Below the pieces are notes generated by a model, which saw only the letters and a program-made list of their open reading frames with translations, searched no databases and was not told the DNA's origin. This document shows positions 28,695 to 39,675 of a DNA stretch of 39,995 bases, piece after piece (the stretch's first letter is position 1; every line of letters begins with the position of its first letter). The position numbers and the translations under genes were made by a program. Origin of the DNA: Candidatus Kuenenia stuttgartensis (lineage in GTDB: Bacteria > Planctomycetota > Planctomycetia > Pirellulales > UBA1268); assembly GCA_945870505.1 (NCBI GenBank), contig CAMBSN010000018.1, positions 1-39,995 on the forward strand. The letters are read 5' to 3'.

Positions 28695-31600
28695 TCAGTT
28701 TAGTGAGGCGGCGGCGGACGGGGAGCGGGTGGATGAAAGTGGTGCCGATTCAGCCGCCGAAGCTGAACCCGACGCCGCCCGCGGTTGGCCGGCGGTGGGC
28801 TGCTCTGCTGCCGGCTGAGCCGACTGGCCGGCTGGCGCCGCCGGGGGCTGCTGCCGCAGGAACGCTTCGAGCGACATGTTTCGCTTGGCAAACGCGTCGA
28901 ACTGCATGAGCAGGTCGGTGAGGGCATCCACCTGCTGCTCACTCGTGCCCTGGTAGAGGTCCTGACTCACGGGCTGGTTGTAGGGGATGTTCACCGGCAT
29001 ACCCGTGTACGGCAGGAACCGCTTCGGGTTGGCGATCCAGCCGTGGACGTAGTCGGGCCGCAGCCGCTCGTGCACCCGCTGCAACTGCGGCGCTAGCGCC
29101 TTCACGCTGCCCGCCGGCGCGTAGTCGCCCACGAGGTGGCACTTCACGCAATAGTTGTTGTTGGTCACGATCTTCAGGGCCCCGTCCAGATGACCCGGGT
29201 GCGCCTGCTCCGCCGCGGCGACCGATGACTCGTCGAGCCGCGGGTCGTAGACGTACGGGTATTCGGCACCGTCTACAGAAGCGAAGTAGTTGACGAGCGC
29301 CGCGGCCTTGGCGGAATCGAAGTTGAACTTAGGCATCCGCAGCACGGCCGGTGGGCGGATCGGATGGGGATTGAGCAGGAACTTGTGCAGCCACGCCGAC
29401 TGCACCTTCTTGCCCTCGCCCACCAGCGGCGGCGGGAGCCAGCCCCAGGCGTCGTCGGGCTTCACGTTCGGGTTCACCTGCTTCTCGTCGGCGATCACCA
29501 CGGGGAAGAGCAACTTGGCGAGGTCGCCGCCCCAGCCCGGGTAGTGGTGCCCCGCGGCGAGTGCATCCTGCGGAACGATCAGATTTTGGCCGCCCACGAT
29601 CCGCGGCGCACCGTCCACGAGGGCGTCCTGCCAGAGCGCGAACGGACGATGCACCACCGACTCGGCGTCACCCTCCTCGATCGGCACACCGTCCTCGTCA
29701 ACGAGCTGCGGCTTGCCCGTCTCTGGATCGAGCGTCGGCATCCCGACCAGGATCGCCTTTCGACGGCCCTGCCGGTCGGTGGTCAGCGAGACGGCGACCT
29801 GATCGGGGGTGAAGTGAGGAGACAGGAACGGATAGTCGGCGAAGGCCGGAGGCTCACCGAGCGACTCGGGCTTGTAGCGGATGTCCCAGCGATCCATGCG
29901 AAGCTGATGGCAGCCACCGCAGTTGTACTGCTCCGCCACCACCAGGCCGTCGAGGCGGGCCTGCTCCCGCGGGGCGGGTTGATGCACGTACTGCGGAGCC
30001 GGCGGCTCGGCGACCAGGCCGAGCACGAACGTCATCACCGCCTCTCGCTGGTCCTCGTTGAAGGGGAACTGCGGCATCCGGTACCGCTCATTGTAGGTTT
30101 TGTTCTCGGCCTTCTTGTAGTCGTAGCTCCGCGGCGCCCGGAGCTTCTGCCAGAGGAAGCCCTCCCGCTCGTGGCCGAGAAGTTTCTCGAGGAAGTAGCC
30201 GATGCTGGGATCGAGCGATTCGGGATCGACGTGGGCCTCGGTATGAGTCGCCTTGTAGGCGAGATCGGGTGCCAGCGACCCATCCTCCGCCGTCGGCTCG
30301 GCGCCGCCGTGCTGCCCGTGACCACCCGAGGCATGATGCCCGTGGCCGTGGCCGCCGGCCAACTGGCGCGTCACCAAGTGCGACACCTGCTCGAACGCGA
30401 TCCGCGAGGGATCCTTGCGGCCCCAGTCGGCGAGCGCGGCACCTGCCGGCTTGCTGTCCTCGAAGCCGGGGATGTCGTGGCACGAGTAGCAGGCAAGCTT
30501 ATTAATCGTCTTCTTGCCCACGTAGGTGAGCAGAAGGCGGTCGCGTTCGGCCCCGTCAAGGCCCACGAGCATCTGCTCGTCGCCCTGGATACCGGCCGCG
30601 TCGCTGACACCCGCGGCGAGCACCTGCTCGGCGCGAACCACCGTGAACCGCTCCTTGAGGTACATCAGCGCAAGTTCGTCGAGTGCCTTCCGCTCCTCTG
30701 CCGACAGTGAACCAGCCGACGCCATCGGGAAGGACGTCTCGCCGTCGAGCGTCTCCACCTGCCAGTCGGCGGCCGGCTTCCAGTCGCCGCCCGACCCCAT
30801 CAGGTATTCGGTCGCGTCGGCGGCGGGATCGCTCACGCTGCCGTCGGCGAGCGTCACCGGCTCGAGCAAGACGTTCGGCATGATCGTCTTGGGGTGGTAC
30901 CGCGACGGCTCGCGGAGCCAGCTGTAAAGCCACTGCTTGCCCTGCGGCAGCGAGGCCGCCTTGCCACCGATCCGCGACAGGTTGGGGCCGTGCATGCTCG
31001 TGGCCTCGGGGAAGTCGTCGTGCTGGTGGCAGGCGAGGCAGCCCCGGAGTTGGACGACCTTGCGGCCCCGCGCGGCGTCGGCCGTCGCGGTGACGCCGTC
31101 GAACGGCTTGACGTAGTCGAACGGGGCACTCGACGTGGTGAGGTAGTGCACCATGGAGCGGATCTCGAGCGGCTCGTACCGCTTCGACTCCTCGAGTTGC
31201 TTGCCCTCGAGGTGGCTCCAGAGTCCAAAGAACCGGGGCATCTTCGTCGAGGGGCGGAACTCCTGCGGATTTCTCAGCCACGAGTAGAGCCAGTCGAAGC
31301 CAACCTTGCTGGCGACGTGCCGCAGGCTCGGGCCGACTTTCGGTAGCGTGCCAGGTGTCTCGGGATCCTTGAGGACCGTGGCGAGTTGGTGCGAGCGACC
31401 GGAGAGCTTGGCATCGGCACCAGCGGCCGCGTCGCGATCGAGCGCCTCGCGGAGCCGCACCCGTGATTCATGGCTGTCGGGGCCCGAGCGAACGTCGGTC
31501 ACCCAGCGGGCGACGGTCTCCCCCATGTCCTTGAGGCCGGGATCGGTGGCGAGGGCCTCGGCCACCTCGTGGTAGTTCGACTCGAGCCGCATGTCGGGGC

Positions 31601-33266
31601 CGATTCGCTTCTCGGGTCCGGCCCAGCCGTTGATCTCGTGGCATCCATAGCAGCCGTACTGCCTGATGAGGTGATAGCCCTCGACGAGCTTTGGCGCGGG
31701 TGGCTCGGGGAACTTCTCGCTCGGCTCGAGATCGACCACCTGGTGGTGGCACTTCAGGCAGCTCGACTCCTCGAACCGCTCAGGCAGCATCGGCTGGATC
31801 CAGTGGTGGTTGTTGAACCAGCCATGCTCATCGTGCCACTCGTGGGCCTGTTTGGGCGTGTTGGGCGTGTGCGAAGACCACTTGAAGCTCGTGGCGCTCC
31901 CCTGCCCCTGATGGCAGATCGTGCAGCCGAAGTTCTTCATGGGATGCGGGCTCGAATCGCCCACGAAGAGGTCGAGCCGCGGGTGGCTCGAATAAGGCTG
32001 CGGCACGCCGCGGCGCACCGTGAGCGAGAGGGGCTTGCCCCAGGCGGGCGTGTCGAGAAGCGACGTGACGGCCATCTTGCGAGCCAGCGTCTTGCCGCCG
32101 TCCACCGCCTCGATCACGTCGCCGGGCTGGAGGCCCGCGACCGCCGCCGGCGACTCGGGCACCACCACGCTGACGGTCGGATCATCGGAAGCAAACAGCC
32201 CGTGGGCCGCAAGCCGCAGGCCGTAGGAGGCTTCGAGCCCGTCGTTCCCGTCGCCGGCCGGCGCCTCCGGCTTCGCCGCAGGCGTCGCGAGCGCCACCGT
32301 CATGGTGGACGCCTCGGGATACCCGGGCTCGGTCGGCGCTCCAGCCATCGACTTGTCCATCCCGCGGTGGCAGGTCGTGCAACGGTCGAAGCGGGCGACG
32401 TCTCGGAAGTTGTTGTTGAGGGTGAGCTGCGGCAGCCAGATCTGATCGACCCTGATCGGGCTGTTGAAGGCTTCGAGCACCGGGAGTTCGAGCAGACTCT
32501 TTCCAGCATTCGGCTGCCGCATGGCGAGCGTCTTCTGGAGTTGCACAAGCTTGGCGCGATGGTCGGCCAAGGCCTTGGCCGCTTCATCCTCGCCCTTGGT
32601 CATCTGCCCCAGCAGAGCGTCGAGTTTCTTGCGGTGGGTGTTGGCATCCTGAAACGCCAGGCTCGCGGCAGCCACCTCCTGACGCTTGGAGTCGGCGAGC
32701 ACGAGCAGCGAGGCCTGGCGATCGGCCGGGGCTTCTTCGGCCACGGCGAGCTCGTAGTCGGCGCGGTTCTTGTCGAGCTCGGCCCGCCGCAGTTTCAGCG
32801 CGCCGGCCAGGTTGTCTTCGCGAAACTTCGTTCGCTTGACGATGTCGCGAAGCCGGGCCAGGAGGTCGCCGCGAACCACCAGCCGCTGCTCCGGGTCCTG
32901 CTGGGACTTCAGCTGGTCGATGTCGAGTTCCGCCCGATCGGCTGCCTGGGCGTCCTCGGTCACCGTCCGGACCTGCGTGATGAACGCCTGGGCCACGTCG
33001 CCGTCAAGATCAGCTCGCCGCGCGTCGCCGAGGGCCGCCTCGAGTTCGTCTCGCCGGGCCTCGTAGGACTTGGAATCCTGCTCGTCAATCCGCGCCTGCG
33101 CGTTCCAGGTCTCGAGTTCGCGGAACTCGCGGGCGTACTGCTTCCACGGACGGTTGTGATCGCCCGTCAACACGAACACGGTCGCCGCCAGGAGCGCCAC
33201 GGCGGTCGCCGCGAACACCACGTGCAGGAGTTTGAGGTTCCACCAGGTCTGTTCTGTTGCGGGCAT
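28695..33266 (-). CDS. Octahaem cytochrome c with coiled coil and PDZ domain
   Basis: The 1523-residue protein has one N-terminal anchor helix ('LLHVVFAATAVALLAATVFVLTG'), then a charged, coiled-coil-like region to about residue 260. Eight CxxCH sites lie near residues 296 (CTTCH), 448 (CTICH), 503 (CLKCH), 539 (CYGCH), 743 (CLACH), 926 (CYSCH), 1116 (CGGCH) and 1373 (CVKCH). A PDZ-like domain lies between the first two ('SPAAVAGLQPGDVIEAVDGGKTL'). The last five sites are each followed by a Met-Pro ligand candidate (TKMPRF, TIMPNV, YRMPQF, LRMPKF, TGMPVN), suggesting five class-I domains. The first three lack this and may be bis-His. Encoded next to cytochrome b, it probably replaces cytochrome c1. 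The C-terminus is a Pro/Ala/Ser tail. The ATG at 33266 was chosen because the helix follows directly. Confidence 0.92.
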   Translation of the reverse strand: MPATEQTWWNLKLLHVVFAATAVALLAATVFVLTGDHNRPWKQYAREFRELETWNAQARIDEQDSKSYEARRDELEAALGDARRADLDGDVAQAFITQVRTVTEDAQAADRAELDIDQLKSQQDPEQRLVVRGDLLARLRDIVKRTKFREDNLAGALKLRRAELDKNRADYELAVAEEAPADRQASLLVLADSKRQEVAAASLAFQDANTHRKKLDALLGQMTKGEDEAAKALADHRAKLVQLQKTLAMRQPNAGKSLLELPVLEAFNSPIRVDQIWLPQLTLNNNFRDVARFDRCTTCHRGMDKSMAGAPTEPGYPEASTMTVALATPAAKPEAPAGDGNDGLEASYGLRLAAHGLFASDDPTVSVVVPESPAAVAGLQPGDVIEAVDGGKTLARKMAVTSLLDTPAWGKPLSLTVRRGVPQPYSSHPRLDLFVGDSSPHPMKNFGCTICHQGQGSATSFKWSSHTPNTPKQAHEWHDEHGWFNNHHWIQPMLPERFEESSCLKCHHQVVDLEPSEKFPEPPAPKLVEGYHLIRQYGCYGCHEINGWAGPEKRIGPDMRLESNYHEVAEALATDPGLKDMGETVARWVTDVRSGPDSHESRVRLREALDRDAAAGADAKLSGRSHQLATVLKDPETPGTLPKVGPSLRHVASKVGFDWLYSWLRNPQEFRPSTKMPRFFGLWSHLEGKQLEESKRYEPLEIRSMVHYLTTSSAPFDYVKPFDGVTATADAARGRKVVQLRGCLACHQHDDFPEATSMHGPNLSRIGGKAASLPQGKQWLYSWLREPSRYHPKTIMPNVLLEPVTLADGSVSDPAADATEYLMGSGGDWKPAADWQVETLDGETSFPMASAGSLSAEERKALDELALMYLKERFTVVRAEQVLAAGVSDAAGIQGDEQMLVGLDGAERDRLLLTYVGKKTINKLACYSCHDIPGFEDSKPAGAALADWGRKDPSRIAFEQVSHLVTRQLAGGHGHGHHASGGHGQHGGAEPTAEDGSLAPDLAYKATHTEAHVDPESLDPSIGYFLEKLLGHEREGFLWQKLRAPRSYDYKKAENKTYNERYRMPQFPFNEDQREAVMTFVLGLVAEPPAPQYVHQPAPREQARLDGLVVAEQYNCGGCHQLRMDRWDIRYKPESLGEPPAFADYPFLSPHFTPDQVAVSLTTDRQGRRKAILVGMPTLDPETGKPQLVDEDGVPIEEGDAESVVHRPFALWQDALVDGAPRIVGGQNLIVPQDALAAGHHYPGWGGDLAKLLFPVVIADEKQVNPNVKPDDAWGWLPPPLVGEGKKVQSAWLHKFLLNPHPIRPPAVLRMPKFNFDSAKAAALVNYFASVDGAEYPYVYDPRLDESSVAAAEQAHPGHLDGALKIVTNNNYCVKCHLVGDYAPAGSVKALAPQLQRVHERLRPDYVHGWIANPKRFLPYTGMPVNIPYNQPVSQDLYQGTSEQQVDALTDLLMQFDAFAKRNMSLEAFLRQQPPAAPAGQSAQPAAEQPTAGQPRAASGSASAAESAPLSSTRSPSAAASLN

Positions 33267-33352
33267 AGGAGTATTCGTCGTCGAGGCGACCGTGCAGCGT
33301 GTTGGGCGATGAGCACCGTGCTGGCTGGCGCGATTGGCGCCGCCAGCCATCT

Positions 33353-34678
33353 TCAAAAGTTCAGCGAGATCTCGGGGATGCTGATGATGTATTTCAGGTT
33401 CAAGGTCCAGCGAAGGATCATTTTGATGGGCAGCGTGAGCATGAGCAGCATCAGGTTCGCCATCACCATGTAGCGGACGAACCCAAGTTTGGCGAAGAAC
33501 CCGCGAAAGATCGTCACCGCCAGAAGCGGCGGTAGCAGGAGCAGGTAAGCGCCCATGACGAGCAACCCGGGAGCTTCCCGGAGAAGCACGTAGCCCGCCT
33601 GGACCAGCCCACTCGCGCCGGCCGGTGCCTTGGGCAGGGGCTGGTCGAGCAGGTTCACCCAGAACATCTGCGGCAGGTCAACGTTGTTGAGCACCTCGAC
33701 CTTGTAGGGCGTCCAATACTCGAACGGCCCGAAAAAGTTCCAGTTGGGACCACGGAGGAACGTTCCCAGGATGATCAGCGTGATCCAGAGCACGAAGAAG
33801 CCGAACTGGTAGGTCAGATAGCTAAACTTTCGCTCTTCGATCGAGTAGTAGCCATTACCGTTCTTGTTGAAGTCGAGGTAGGGCATCGCCATCAGGCCGA
33901 AGACGACAAGGCTCGGCAGCACCACGCCCGCATACCAGGGGTCGAAGTAGACGAGCATCTCCTGAAGCCCGAGGAAGTACCACGGGGCCTTCGATGGGTT
34001 TGGCGTCTTCACGCTGCTGGCCGGTTCCTCGAGCGGCGCTGGCAGGAAGATCGCCCAAACCAGCAGGAACGCCATCACGGCCACCATGCAGATCAGTTCG
34101 GTGTAGACAAGGTCGGGCCAGACGAGCACCTTCTCGTCGTTCTCTTTCTCAACCGTCGGTAGGCCGCGGGCGATCCGGTCGTCGTTGACGACGGCCTGCT
34201 TGGTGGCGAGCCAGGTGAAGAAGGCGAGCAGGAAGACGAGGCCCACGATCGGCACGTTGTCGGGCTTCATCACAATCGCGGCAAAGTTCTCGTCGGCCAT
34301 CGACAGGCCCATGAGCACGAGCATCGCATTGAGGATGCCCCAGGCCACCATCGGCTTGACGAAGAAACTGCGAAACACGAACAGCACCGTGAGCAGCGCG
34401 AACGTGCCGAGGGTGTAGAGCATGGGTCCGGAGAGACGATTGACGAGGCTGCGGACCGAGGCGGGCAGCGCCGGCACCATCCCGGGGGAGGCCGAGAGGG
34501 CGAGGCTCGCGAGCACCATCATCGCGATCGCCAGAGCCGTCCAGACCATTGCCCAGCCCAGCTGTCCCTTCTTCCGCCAGAGGATCAGCGCGGCGATCCC
34601 GTTCATGATCGCGATGCAGGAGTAGTAGCCGCCTAGAAAGCCGGCGACGTCCTGAAGGAAAAAGCCATTGGAATGCAT
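33353..34678 (-). CDS. Cytochrome b C-terminal part (subunit IV-like), bc-type complex
   Basis: The 441-residue membrane protein has about ten to eleven helices. The core corresponds to the C-terminal half of cytochrome b (subunit IV of b6f). 'SSVKTPNPSKAPWYFLGLQEMLVYFDPWYAGVVLP' is the Qo-site loop, with APWY in place of PEWY. Compared with plant-type subunit IV (~160 residues) it has a long N-terminal extension of five or so helices ('YYSCIAIMNGIAALILW', 'WTALAIAMMVLASLAL', 'MLYTLGTFALLTVLFVF' and others) and additional C-terminal helices. It lies 10 bp after the cytochrome b N-terminal gene and 86 bp before the octahaem cytochrome gene, and would build a quinol-oxidising complex with the neighbours. 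The ATG at 34678 was chosen because upstream codons overlap cytochrome b. Confidence 0.9.
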   Translation of the reverse strand: MHSNGFFLQDVAGFLGGYYSCIAIMNGIAALILWRKKGQLGWAMVWTALAIAMMVLASLALSASPGMVPALPASVRSLVNRLSGPMLYTLGTFALLTVLFVFRSFFVKPMVAWGILNAMLVLMGLSMADENFAAIVMKPDNVPIVGLVFLLAFFTWLATKQAVVNDDRIARGLPTVEKENDEKVLVWPDLVYTELICMVAVMAFLLVWAIFLPAPLEEPASSVKTPNPSKAPWYFLGLQEMLVYFDPWYAGVVLPSLVVFGLMAMPYLDFNKNGNGYYSIEERKFSYLTYQFGFFVLWITLIILGTFLRGPNWNFFGPFEYWTPYKVEVLNNVDLPQMFWVNLLDQPLPKAPAGASGLVQAGYVLLREAPGLLVMGAYLLLLPPLLAVTIFRGFFAKLGFVRYMVMANLMLLMLTLPIKMILRWTLNLKYIISIPEISLNF

Positions 34679-34688
34679 GTCTGTGTCG

Positions 34689-35462
34689 TCACAGCGGCCC
34701 GCTGATGCCGCCGTCCTTTCGCACGCGCCAGAAGTGGATCGCCAGAAGCAGCGCCACCGCGAGCGGGATCGCGATGCAGTGGAGCACGTAGAACCGGTTG
34801 AGCGTTTCCTCGCCGACGAACCGGGCGCCGAGGAGGCCAAAGCGGGCGTCCGAGGCATCGGTGATCATGTCGATTCCGCCCACCGTGAGGAGTTGCTGCC
34901 CCGGGCCTTCGTAGCCGAGGAAGGGGGTGGCACGGGCCATGTTCGAACCCACCGTGATGGCCCAGATCGCCAGCTGGTCCCACGGCAGGAGGTAGCCGGT
35001 GAACGAGAGCAGGAGCGTGAGCAGCAGGAGGATCACGCCGATCACCCAGTTGAACTCGCGTGGCGGCTTGTAGCTTCCAGTGAGGAACACCCGGTACATG
35101 TGGAGCCAGGTGGTGATCACCATCGCGTGCGCCCCCCAGCGATGGAGTTCGCGAAGGATGCCGAGGCTCGTCACGTCGCGGAGGGCGAGGATGTCGTTGT
35201 AGGCCCATTCGAGCGTGGGCCGGTAGTAGAACATCAAGAGCACGCCCGTGACCGTCTCCACCAGAAACAGGAAGAAGGTCACACCGCCCATGCACCACGT
35301 GAACGACAGGGCGATGCCCTGCTTCTTGATCGAAACCGGGTGAAGGTGGAGGAAGAAGTTGGTGAGCATCACCACGATCCGGTTGCGCCGATCGAGCGGC
35401 ATCGGATGGCGGAAGATGCTCTTCCAGATCTGAGAGTTGCGGATGGTCTCGCCGATGGCCAT
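34689..35462 (-). CDS. petB: Cytochrome b N-terminal part (b6-type), bc-type complex
   Basis: The 257-residue subunit carries the two b haems. Ligand histidines occur in '[40 protein letters not shown]' and '[21 protein letters not shown]'. The last pair is separated by 14 residues, as in b6-type proteins, rather than the 13 of bc1. The family pattern '[21 protein letters not shown]' is intact. The N-terminus '[35 protein letters not shown]' also fits. It begins 21 bp after the Rieske gene. With the following gene it makes up a split cytochrome b. It sits in the cytoplasmic membrane and oxidises quinol. Confidence 0.96.
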
Positions 35463-35483: not shown

Positions 35484-36548
35484 TCAGACGGTCACGTATG
35501 AATCGGGGTCGGCCCACTGGCCGAGCTCTTCCTGGAACGTCTTGCTCTTGTCGATCTCGAGTTGCCCGTCGTCGGCGACGCGGATCGAATATCGCTCGAG
35601 CGGACGAGGCGCCGGCCCCTCGAAGTTGACGCCGTCCTTGTAGAAGCCGCTCCCGTGGCAGGGGCACTTGAACTTCTGCTCGGCCTCGAGCCAGCTGGGC
35701 GTGCAGCCAAGATGGGTGCAGACGGTTTTGAGGGCGTAGATCTGCTGCAGGCCCTGAAAGTCGCCGTTGACGACCCAGACGCCGTACTGCGGGACGTACT
35801 TCGTCTCCACCTTGCCCGATGGGAAGGCATCCTTGAAGCCGACCTTGAACTTGCTCGGCGGCTCAGCGAGCACGTTCGGAAACAGGAACCGAGCCAGGCC
35901 GAGCGAAAACAGGCCGCCGGTCACCGCGAGGGCGGAGAAGCCAACAGCCATCGCCGACCCTAGGGCGATCTGAAGGAAGCCACGGCGGTCTTCGGCGTCC
36001 TCTCCCTTCTTGGCGGGCTTCAGGGGCTTGGAAGGAAGCGTGGCCACCGTCCGCGACGGCGCGGCCTTCTCCTCAACAGGCTTCGCCTCGCGGGGCTTCG
36101 GTGCCGGACGCGATGGGGCGTCGGCCTTGCTCATCGGCCCCGGCTTCGCCCCGGCGCGGGCGGCGGCCAGAATGCTGGCGGTATCGCGTTGCACGCCGGT
36201 CTTCGCTGCCCCGGCGGCAGCGATGGGCTTCGCAGTTGGCTTGGCCGCAGCGGATTTGGCGGCGGGAGCAGTTGCCGGCTTGGCGGCGGGTTTGGCGGCC
36301 GGGGCCTCACCGGCCTCTTTTTTCGCCCTGGCCATGGCCATGATGTCTGCCACGCTCGGCCGGGCGCCGCCTGCGGCCGGCTTCAGCTTCCCGGCGGTCG
36401 CCTTTTCCGCGGTTTCCTCAGCGGCCGGTTGGGCGGCCTCCGGTTCCGCGGCCGGTGTTGGAGCCACAGACGCTGCCCCACCCTTGCCGTCCGACGACCG
36501 GGCAGCCGCGAGAATCTCAGCCACCGACATCTTCTTCTTGTCTGCCAT
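35484..36548 (-). CDS. Rieske iron-sulfur protein with repeated N-terminal extension
   Basis: The 354-residue protein carries the 2Fe-2S Rieske domain in its C-terminal ~130 residues, with cluster motifs 'VCTHLGCTPSW' and 'KCPCHGSGFY'. A membrane anchor ('ALGSAMAVGFSALAVTGGLFSLGLARFLF') follows a twin-arginine-like 'DRRGFLQIA'. Before it lies a ~190-residue Ala/Pro/Lys-rich extension, probably cytoplasmic, with three copies of a short helical motif: 'MSVAEILAAARSS', 'PSVADIMAMARAK' and 'DTASILAAARAG'. Canonical Rieske proteins have little before the anchor. It is the first gene of the respiratory run and lies downstream of a good promoter (36682-36709). It transfers electrons from quinol to the c-type cytochromes. 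Confidence 0.95.
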   Translation of the reverse strand: MADKKKMSVAEILAAARSSDGKGGAASVAPTPAAEPEAAQPAAEETAEKATAGKLKPAAGGARPSVADIMAMARAKKEAGEAPAAKPAAKPATAPAAKSAAAKPTAKPIAAAGAAKTGVQRDTASILAAARAGAKPGPMSKADAPSRPAPKPREAKPVEEKAAPSRTVATLPSKPLKPAKKGEDAEDRRGFLQIALGSAMAVGFSALAVTGGLFSLGLARFLFPNVLAEPPSKFKVGFKDAFPSGKVETKYVPQYGVWVVNGDFQGLQQIYALKTVCTHLGCTPSWLEAEQKFKCPCHGSGFYKDGVNFEGPAPRPLERYSIRVADDGQLEIDKSKTFQEELGQWADPDSYVTV

Positions 36549-36649
36549 AGGAGGCGCCTCGGCGCGGCACCGCCCTCGGTCAGCGGGGCCAAAACACCGC
36601 CGACGGGACGCGGGACCACGTAAAAAGCATGTTTCGGCCGCGTTTGCGC

Positions 36650-36675
36650 GAGTTCGTGAAGTTTTTCACGAACTC
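36650..36675. promoter_or_regulatory. Perfect inverted repeat, operator or leader hairpin
   Basis: GAGTTCGTGAA (36650-36660) and TTCACGAACTC (36665-36675) are exact complements around a 4-base GTTT loop. On the minus strand the site begins about 7 bases after the predicted -10 box, so it covers the expected transcription start. That placement fits a repressor operator, or a hairpin at the extreme 5' end of the mRNA that affects stability. No T-tract follows, so a terminator is less likely. Confidence 0.6.
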
Positions 36676-36678
36676 CAT

Positions 36679-36706
36679 TTAACTGTATCGGCAGGCCCGG
36701 TACTGT
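36679..36706 (+). promoter_or_regulatory. Possible divergent promoter toward purD
   Basis: On the plus strand TTAACT (36679-36684) and TACTGT (36701-36706) are spaced by 16 bases and almost coincide with the minus-strand boxes, because the segment is imperfectly palindromic. A start near 36713 would give a leader of about 200 bases before purD. The match to consensus is weaker than on the minus strand. Confidence 0.35.
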
Positions 36707-36709
36707 CAA
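36682..36709 (-). promoter_or_regulatory. Sigma-70-like promoter of the respiratory gene run
   Basis: On the minus strand TTGACA (36704-36709) is a perfect -35 consensus. It is followed after 16 bases by TACAGT (36682-36687), four of six matches to TATAAT including the key first A and last T. A start near 36675 would give a leader of about 127 bases before the Rieske ATG. This is the only convincing promoter upstream of the respiratory genes. Confidence 0.55.
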
Positions 36710-36919
36710 CTTCGGCTTTCACCAAAGTACCCCCCTGAAAGTGCTGCTCTCTCGATTCGGCGGCGGCGAAAGCCCTCTCCAGTCCCCCTAGAAGTCCACA
36801 CGGCCACCGACGCGGAGTGACCCGAGGGTTCGCACGGCCACTAAGTTCGGTACAACCACGCTCCCGCGCTGGACGAAAAAGTTCCGACCGCAACAGCCTG
36901 CCGCCCAAGGAGCCCGACC

Positions 36920-38254
36920 GTGCCCCCATCCCGCCGCGTTCTCGTTGTGGGCAGTGGCGGACGCGAACACGCGCTGGTCTGGAAACTCATCCAGGATGGG
37001 GCCGAAGTGCTGGTGGCGCCCGGGAACGCAGGCACGGCTTCGATCGCGGAAAATGTGCCCATCGCCGCCACGGATATTCCGGGGTTGCTCGACGTCGCCC
37101 GCCGCCGCGGCGTGGACCTCACCGTGGTCGGCCCAGAGGTGCCGCTCGTGGCGGGGATCGTTGATGAGTTCACCGCCGCCGGCCTGCGGATCTTCGGCCC
37201 CACGAAGCGGGCCGCCCAGATCGAGGGCAGCAAGTCGTTCTGCAAGCAGATCCTCCACCGTGGCGATGTGCCGACCGCCATGTTCCGGGAGTTTCGCACG
37301 CCCGCGCAGGCCCGGGAATACATCGAGGTCCGCGAGGACATCCCGGTGGTGGTGAAGGCCGACGGCCTCGCGGCAGGCAAGGGCGTGTTCGTGTGCGACG
37401 ACCGCGCCGCCGCTCTCGCGGCCATCGAAGCCTTGGCAGCCGATCCGCTCCTGGCCGCCGCGTCGGGCAACATCCTCATCGAGGAGCGGCTCGATGGCAT
37501 CGAGGTGAGCGTGCTGGCGATCACCGACGGCCGCACGATCGTCACGCTCCCACCGCTTCAGGACCACAAGGCCGCGCACGACGACGACGCGGGCCCGAAC
37601 ACCGGCGGCATGGGAGCCTACTGCCCCACGCCGTTTGTCGACGAGCCGCTCCTCGCCGAGATCGAGGCGCGGATTCTTGTGCCCACCGTGCACGCGATGC
37701 GGCGGGCGAAGGTGCCCTTCCAGGGAGTTCTCTATGCGGGGCTGATGCTCACCGCGCAGGGCCCGAAGGTGCTTGAGTTCAACGCCCGGTTTGGCGACCC
37801 CGAATGCGAACCGCTGCTCCTGCGAATGGAATCGAGCCTGCTCGAACTTCTCGACGCCACGGTCGATCGCACGCTCGAAACCTGCCAGCCCCCGCGATGG
37901 CGTGACGGGGCGGCGGTGAGCGTGGTGATGGCGAGCGAGGGCTACCCTGGCCCCGTCTCCAAGGGCCAGCCGATCCGCGGGCTCGAGGCCGCGGGCCGTC
38001 TTCCCAACGTGCAGGTGTTTCATGCGGCCACGCGCCTGGCAGACGGCGCGGTCGTCGCCGATGGTGGTCGCGTGCTTGCCGTGACGGCCCTCGGCTCGTC
38101 GCTCGCTCGAGCCAAACTCCAGGCCTACACCGCTGTCAAAGAGATTCGCTGGGCCGGCGCCTGGTGCCGCAAGGACATCAGCGACAAGGGCCTGCGGCGT
38201 GAACGAGAACTCCTCGCGGCCGAAGTCGCGAGCGAGGAGCCGGCGGCCTCATGA
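36920..38254 (+). CDS. purD: Phosphoribosylamine-glycine ligase (GAR synthetase)
   Basis: This is the second step of purine synthesis: ATP-dependent joining of 5-phosphoribosylamine and glycine, in the cytoplasm. The 444-residue protein has normal length, with the N-terminal 'VLVVGSGGREHALVWKL' and 'APGNAGTA'. The ATP-grasp region includes 'PVVVKADGLAAGKGVFVCDD', 'LIEERLDGIEVSVLAITDG' and 'AHDDDAGPNTGGMGAYCPTP'. The metal/ATP-binding end is 'VLEFNARFGDPECEPLL'. The GTG start at 36920 is supported by AAGGAG 7 bases upstream and by the family N-terminus. The stop overlaps the next gene's ATG by 4 bp, indicating translational coupling with the Gfo/Idh/MocA protein, an unusual partner for purD. 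Confidence 0.97.
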   Translation: MPPSRRVLVVGSGGREHALVWKLIQDGAEVLVAPGNAGTASIAENVPIAATDIPGLLDVARRRGVDLTVVGPEVPLVAGIVDEFTAAGLRIFGPTKRAAQIEGSKSFCKQILHRGDVPTAMFREFRTPAQAREYIEVREDIPVVVKADGLAAGKGVFVCDDRAAALAAIEALAADPLLAAASGNILIEERLDGIEVSVLAITDGRTIVTLPPLQDHKAAHDDDAGPNTGGMGAYCPTPFVDEPLLAEIEARILVPTVHAMRRAKVPFQGVLYAGLMLTAQGPKVLEFNARFGDPECEPLLLRMESSLLELLDATVDRTLETCQPPRWRDGAAVSVVMASEGYPGPVSKGQPIRGLEAAGRLPNVQVFHAATRLADGAVVADGGRVLAVTALGSSLARAKLQAYTAVKEIRWAGAWCRKDISDKGLRRERELLAAEVASEEPAAS

Positions 38255-39362: not shown

Positions 39363-39381
39363 TCCTGCCGATGCGCCGCTC

Positions 39382-39540
39382 GGGGATGCCCACGCCCCGT
39401 CGCCGGACGTTCACTCCGTCCATCCTGGCCTCCGCTCACTCGATGCTGCCTACGCTCCGGCATCCATGCCTCCGCCGACCAATCCGCCTGCGGCGGATCG
39501 GTGCCCGAGCAACGCCGGCTCCCGGGGCATGGGCATCCCC
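39382..39540. repeat. Dispersed repeat family B, copy 2, with terminal inverted repeats
   Basis: GGGGATGCCCACGCCCCG (39382-39399) and CGGGGCATGGGCATCCCC (39523-39540) are complementary at 17 of 18 positions. The interior aligns with 13970-14100. This copy carries an additional ATCCGCC-TGC-GGCGGAT hairpin (39482-39498) absent from copy 1, which accounts for most of its extra length. Confidence 0.7.
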
Positions 39541-39569
39541 TCGCTTCATCACTTCATCGCTTCCCCGTA

Positions 39570-39629
39570 GCACAGGTTTTCAACCTGTGCCTGTCCGGTG
39601 CGTTCCCAGAGCAATCGCTTTTCAGCGAT
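39570..39629. repeat. Two adjacent small perfect hairpins
   Basis: GCACAGGTT-TTC-AACCTGTGC (39570-39590) is a perfect 9-bp stem, and ATCGCT-TTTC-AGCGAT (39614-39629) a perfect 6-bp stem. They lie between the convergent Gfo/Idh/MocA and leuB-like genes, so a role in transcription termination is possible, though no T-tract follows. I recall similar 'GCACAGGTT...AACCTGTGC' units between genes of related bacteria, but have not checked. Confidence 0.55.
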
Positions 39630-39675
39630 GAACGCCCGACGTTTCTAGGCTCACAAATACCCGCTGCCGCCCGCC

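Follow-up and report, generated by a model that had tools for sequence, protein, structure and literature searches.

A predicted Rex operator at the promoter of a Rieske/cytochrome b gene cluster in Pirellulales-type planctomycetes

The window, a contiguous stretch of 39,995 nucleotides, contains a cluster of respiratory genes that begins with a Rieske [2Fe-2S] protein and is preceded by a promoter and an exact palindrome. The palindrome overlaps the predicted transcription start of the cluster and is very probably the operator of the redox-sensing repressor Rex (Table 1). The core shared across the order, TYGTGAAnnnnnTCACRA with an A/T-rich (A-rich) spacer, corresponds to TTGTGAAN4TTCACAA, the operator sequence published for Rex (PMC2883068, PMC5355995, PMC8376106). 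The site is predicted to bind Rex, to repress the cluster and to respond to NADH.

Table 1. Coordinates of the promoter, the predicted operator and the neighboring genes in the window.
Feature	Position	Strand	Description
-35 box TTGACA, Rieske-operon promoter	36704..36709	-	TTGAC in 29/29 anchored sequences
-10 box TACAGT	36682..36687	-	16-bp spacer to -35
Exact 11-bp inverted repeat, 4-nt loop; predicted Rex operator	36650..36675	.	GAGTTCGTGAA-GTTT-TTCACGAACTC
Second leader element CGAAAC-N4-TTTTT	36622..36636	-	16/19 genus members, same offset
Rieske [2Fe-2S] protein, first gene of cluster	35484..36548	-	ATG at 36548; PF00355, E 3e-10
Cytochrome b/b6 gene	34689..35462	-	PF00033, E 2e-39
ORF with petD-like cytochrome b C-terminal domain	33353..34858	-	PF00032, E 2e-5
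Very large multihaem cytochrome c protein	28695..33356	-	PF00034 and related c-type cytochrome families
purD, divergent neighbor	36920..38254	+	Pfam GARS domains

A promoter scan between 36500 and 36960 returned TTGACA-N16-TACAGT as the sole promoter-like match, with agreement at 10 of 12 positions and a mean of 0.0 matches in shuffled sequence. The original prediction described this promoter as pointing into the respiratory genes, and its sequence on the minus strand is as described. The palindrome begins ~7 bp past the -10 box, at a predicted position of about +1 to +26; the sequence confirms the perfect 11-bp repeat that had been proposed there. The operator core within it is TTCGTGAA-N4-TTCACGAA (36653-36672). 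No second perfect repeat with an arm of at least 11 and a loop of 3-10 occurs in the window. Shuffled windows contained on average 0.35 perfect repeats of that size, so the symmetry of the palindrome alone is not significant for one window, and a statistical proof based on symmetry by itself was rejected as near chance.

Conservation upstream of the Rieske orthologues settles the question that symmetry does not. The Rieske gene was traced across 40 relatives, which are planctomycete MAGs, many of them derived from lakes and several labelled Pirellulales. The GTGA-N6-TCAC core is located upstream of the Rieske gene in 29 of 30 loci. All of L002-L030, which span the genus, the family and the order, have it, in most cases at a distance of 75-220 bp from where the Rieske match begins; the sole exception among the 30 is L031, where the core is absent. 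In a second collection, which is independent but shares some genomes with the first, the core is present at 71 of 76 Rieske loci, and none of these 71 operators departs from GTGAA or TCAC. The original prediction had staked its case on conservation upstream of orthologous Rieske genes, and both collections bear it out. Alignments anchored on the core align TTGAC and a TACAGT-like -10 box at nearly fixed spacing across families. Among the 19 genus members, identity reaches 90-100% in most columns of the promoter and operator, and it is mostly 20-60% in the stretch between these elements and purD. The promoter with a protein-operator palindrome at its predicted start site thus looks like a real, conserved and functional element.

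The cluster downstream encodes the Rieske protein, cytochrome b components and a multihaem cytochrome c. The ORF with the petD-like domain probably has its true start downstream of the listed one, and the multihaem cytochrome c gene probably belongs to the cluster. A long N-terminal extension of the Rieske protein is rich in Ala and Lys and contains repeated SVAEILAAAR / SVADIMAMARAKK segments. The second leader element lies at a fixed spacing 19 bp past the operator core and is possibly the site for another regulator. Its version in one relative (G003) is a nearly full dyad, TCGAAA-N6-TTTCGA.

A palindrome at the 5' end of an mRNA could also act as an RNA hairpin that controls stability or translation. 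The predicted fold of the leader contains the 11-bp stem, which is stable, and both arms of the palindrome changed together in G014. However, families with a broken stem (e.g. G025, G034 and G036) retain the DNA core, which makes a role as an RNA hairpin less likely. The identical core is also found at nuoA, nqrA, atp and mqnA, and the strict invariance of the GTGAA and TCAC bases exceeds what pairing needs. Comparison of the leader with Rfam gave no relevant family and only a chance eukaryotic IRES match far below threshold. An RNA function for the palindrome is considered highly improbable.

The details of the site are largely those of a DNA operator of the Rex type. The central bases of the spacer are mostly A or T in the 71 operators of the second collection, and the placement of the site, ~7 bp past a conserved -10 box in the promoter of an energy gene, fits the type. 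Each half-site in the window is a close variant of the Rex consensus with one T-to-C substitution, and the form TCGTGAA rather than TTGTGAA counts against the Rex reading. The TTGTGAA form is present in other families of the order. The original prediction called the palindrome operator-like and left the regulator unnamed; the operator is supported, and Rex is the regulator proposed here.

CRP sites have the form TGTGA-N6-TCACA, and their core is common to Rex-type sites. The GTGA-N6-TCAC core is therefore compatible with both families, and a CRP/FNR-family regulator could bind the palindrome. One order member (G037) has TTGTGAGCTAGCTCACAA before a CRP-family gene (L118:1541); its spacer differs, and it is likely a site of the CRP type and not one of the Rex-like sites. 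Against a CRP/FNR regulator, none of the 10 family genomes searched, all with intact operators, yielded a CRP-type HTH that passes the Pfam cut-off, and several classmates without rex encode CRP-family proteins but have no operator; this comparison covers few independent lineages. The inner AA/TT, the A-rich spacer and the repression-type position at +1 to +26 favor Rex over CRP. Binding of a CRP/FNR protein to the palindrome is accordingly judged very unlikely.

The distribution of rex was compared with that of the operator. The Rex domain PF06971 is present in 34 of the 40 relatives, and one representative relative encodes a Rex that is full-length by NCBIfam (E 1e-76) and that solved Rex structures match at E 3e-48. 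The nuoA site was found in 6 of 6 rex-bearing order members tested. In a rex-less family of the same class the site is absent at the Rieske gene (0/6) and at nuoA (0/3), and a rex-less order member (G152) has no site at nuoA; this co-absence of rex and operator represents essentially one phylogenetic split plus G152. Several observations count against Rex. One relative (G026) has rex and no site at its best Rieske match. Neither rex nor a rex flank or neighbor gene was found in the MAG that contains the window, which is 87% complete, and rex was not found in G005, G007 and G008. G008 is rated 97% complete, yet it has the operator, also at nuoA. G003 is negative for PF06971, yet a rex-locus fragment at the end of one of its contigs includes the 3' portion of the gene. 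Recovery of rex in this MAG through the rex locus of a relative matched only a dispersed repeat. It is plausible that the MAG's own rex lies in an assembly gap, because contig ends interrupt the rex locus of G003 and the neighbor gene is highly repetitive. The dispersed repeat is up to ~270 bp long (L047:2195-2470) and matches this MAG at ~110 places and G005 at ~90. One of its frames reads a peptide with STGFQPV, which also occurs in the window ORF 39371-39631. The ~700 bp before each of 30 rex genes in the order contain no operator, and autoregulation of Rex by its own operator was rejected for this reason. This also counts against the Rex reading, since known Rex proteins often autoregulate; the trait is common rather than universal and is not a strict defining feature.

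Genome-wide scans, carried out as pattern searches, show that exact TYGTGANNNNNNTCACRA sites are rare, with 2-9 per genome of this family versus 0-2 for the reversed control. The intergenic sites in the relatives include 14 before Rieske genes and 12 before nuoA, one of the latter from this genome. A further 5 are located before nqrA, 2 before ATP-synthase leader genes and 2 before mqnA, and the remaining non-coding sites are at genes for CBS-domain proteins (4 loci) and scattered others. The original prediction had suggested a search for other genomic copies of the palindrome, and this genome does have perfect sites upstream of nuoABC and of nuoH. Another motif copy in this genome (C24:7499) lies inside a large ORF and was judged to be chance, as were the copies at C10:35978 and C43:11535. 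The genes that share the motif form a predicted respiratory regulon. The CBS-domain proteins with a Rex-like motif upstream (L087, L132, L141 and L143) are possible further members; L132 has two Rex-like sites, 75 bp apart.

The mechanism proposed for this regulon is a redox switch. When NADH is scarce, NAD+-bound Rex would occupy the palindrome at about +1 to +26 and block RNA polymerase. A build-up of NADH, caused by electron-acceptor limitation or reductant excess, would release Rex and induce the Rieske cluster, together with the site-bearing genes of nuo, nqr, ATP synthase and menaquinone synthesis. In this way Rex would dampen the respiratory chain in cells that are short of NADH.

The original prediction also held that one site could control both directions through matching boxes facing purD. 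The operator does sit between divergent genes, a single-site repressor may affect both sides, and purD is divergent in 58 of 71 operator loci. The boxes are weak resemblances that the promoter scan did not return; the hexamers facing purD are the Rieske -10 and -35 boxes read in reverse, and they are variable outside the Rieske promoter. In 6 of 29 loci the fetched sequence contains no divergent purD, and the promoter and operator persist there; they also persist in 13 of 13 such loci of the second collection. Because the purD boxes mirror the Rieske boxes and the operator is kept without purD, control in both directions was rejected as the main reading, and a shared operator-promoter that regulates the Rieske cluster and purD is thought very improbable. 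The purD start is ~245 bp away, and purD has a conserved block of its own closer to that start. This block, TGGTTGTACCGAACT in the minus-strand reading (36844-36858), lies 60-75 bp before purD and is a candidate for purD's own control region. The palindrome site probably does not control purD, and its predicted target in the window is the Rieske cluster.

The T-to-C change in the half-sites was compared with the residues of Rex. The wing residue Arg60 contacts the T before GTGA in the Thermotoga maritima complex (PMC8836258), whereas the Rex proteins of this order have Pro at that position. This family has C in place of that T in 19 of 22 left half-sites and in 22 of 22 right half-sites of its Rieske operators. 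Other families with Pro at the wing position have mixed T and C in their operators, and a clean covariation of Rex residues with operator T or C was rejected as mixed (e.g. G087). A tentative and rather doubtful proposal is that the altered wing (Arg60 to Pro) no longer needs the T and that TTGTGAA drifted to TCGTGAA, a natural specificity shift that, with the CGAAAC-N4-TTTTT element, would put Rieske/cytochrome b under NADH control. It is advanced at this strength because the Pro families are mixed for T and C and the DNA of the window is GC-rich (68%). The proposal offers a natural change in protein-DNA specificity for testing.

A Rex operator, which is a system of a known kind, is the best explanation for the site. 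No published Rex regulon for this lineage was found in the paper library searched. The same search found no Rex study of uncultured freshwater Pirellulales-type planctomycetes. The analysis names a predicted regulator of respiration in these organisms together with its regulon, both concrete enough to be tested, and it extends predicted Rex control to the Rieske/cytochrome b complex and menaquinone synthesis. In the T. maritima Rex-NAD+-DNA complex, Arg48 and Lys49 of the recognition helix read the GTGA core (PMC8836258), and both residues are conserved in the Rex of the relatives. The Streptomyces avermitilis Rex system has a similar palindrome, and Rex protects -3 to +25 at cydA1 (PMC5355995), which is the placement predicted here. 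In Streptomyces, experiments support nuo and atp as targets of Rex (PMC5355995); S. avermitilis Rex controls both, and both gene sets are preceded by the motif in this order. Unlike the Streptomyces regulon, the order has no operator at rex itself, the half-site in the window is TCGTGAA, and the predicted targets include the Rieske/cytochrome b cluster, nqr and mqnA. Staphylococcus aureus Rex prefers an A/T-rich spacer, TTGTGAAW4TTCACAA, and its binding is promoted by NAD+ and relieved by NADH (PMC2883068). The S. aureus operator and the site described here are alike in sequence and in their A/T-rich spacer, but S. aureus Rex represses anaerobically induced genes, whereas the predicted targets in this order belong to the respiratory chain.
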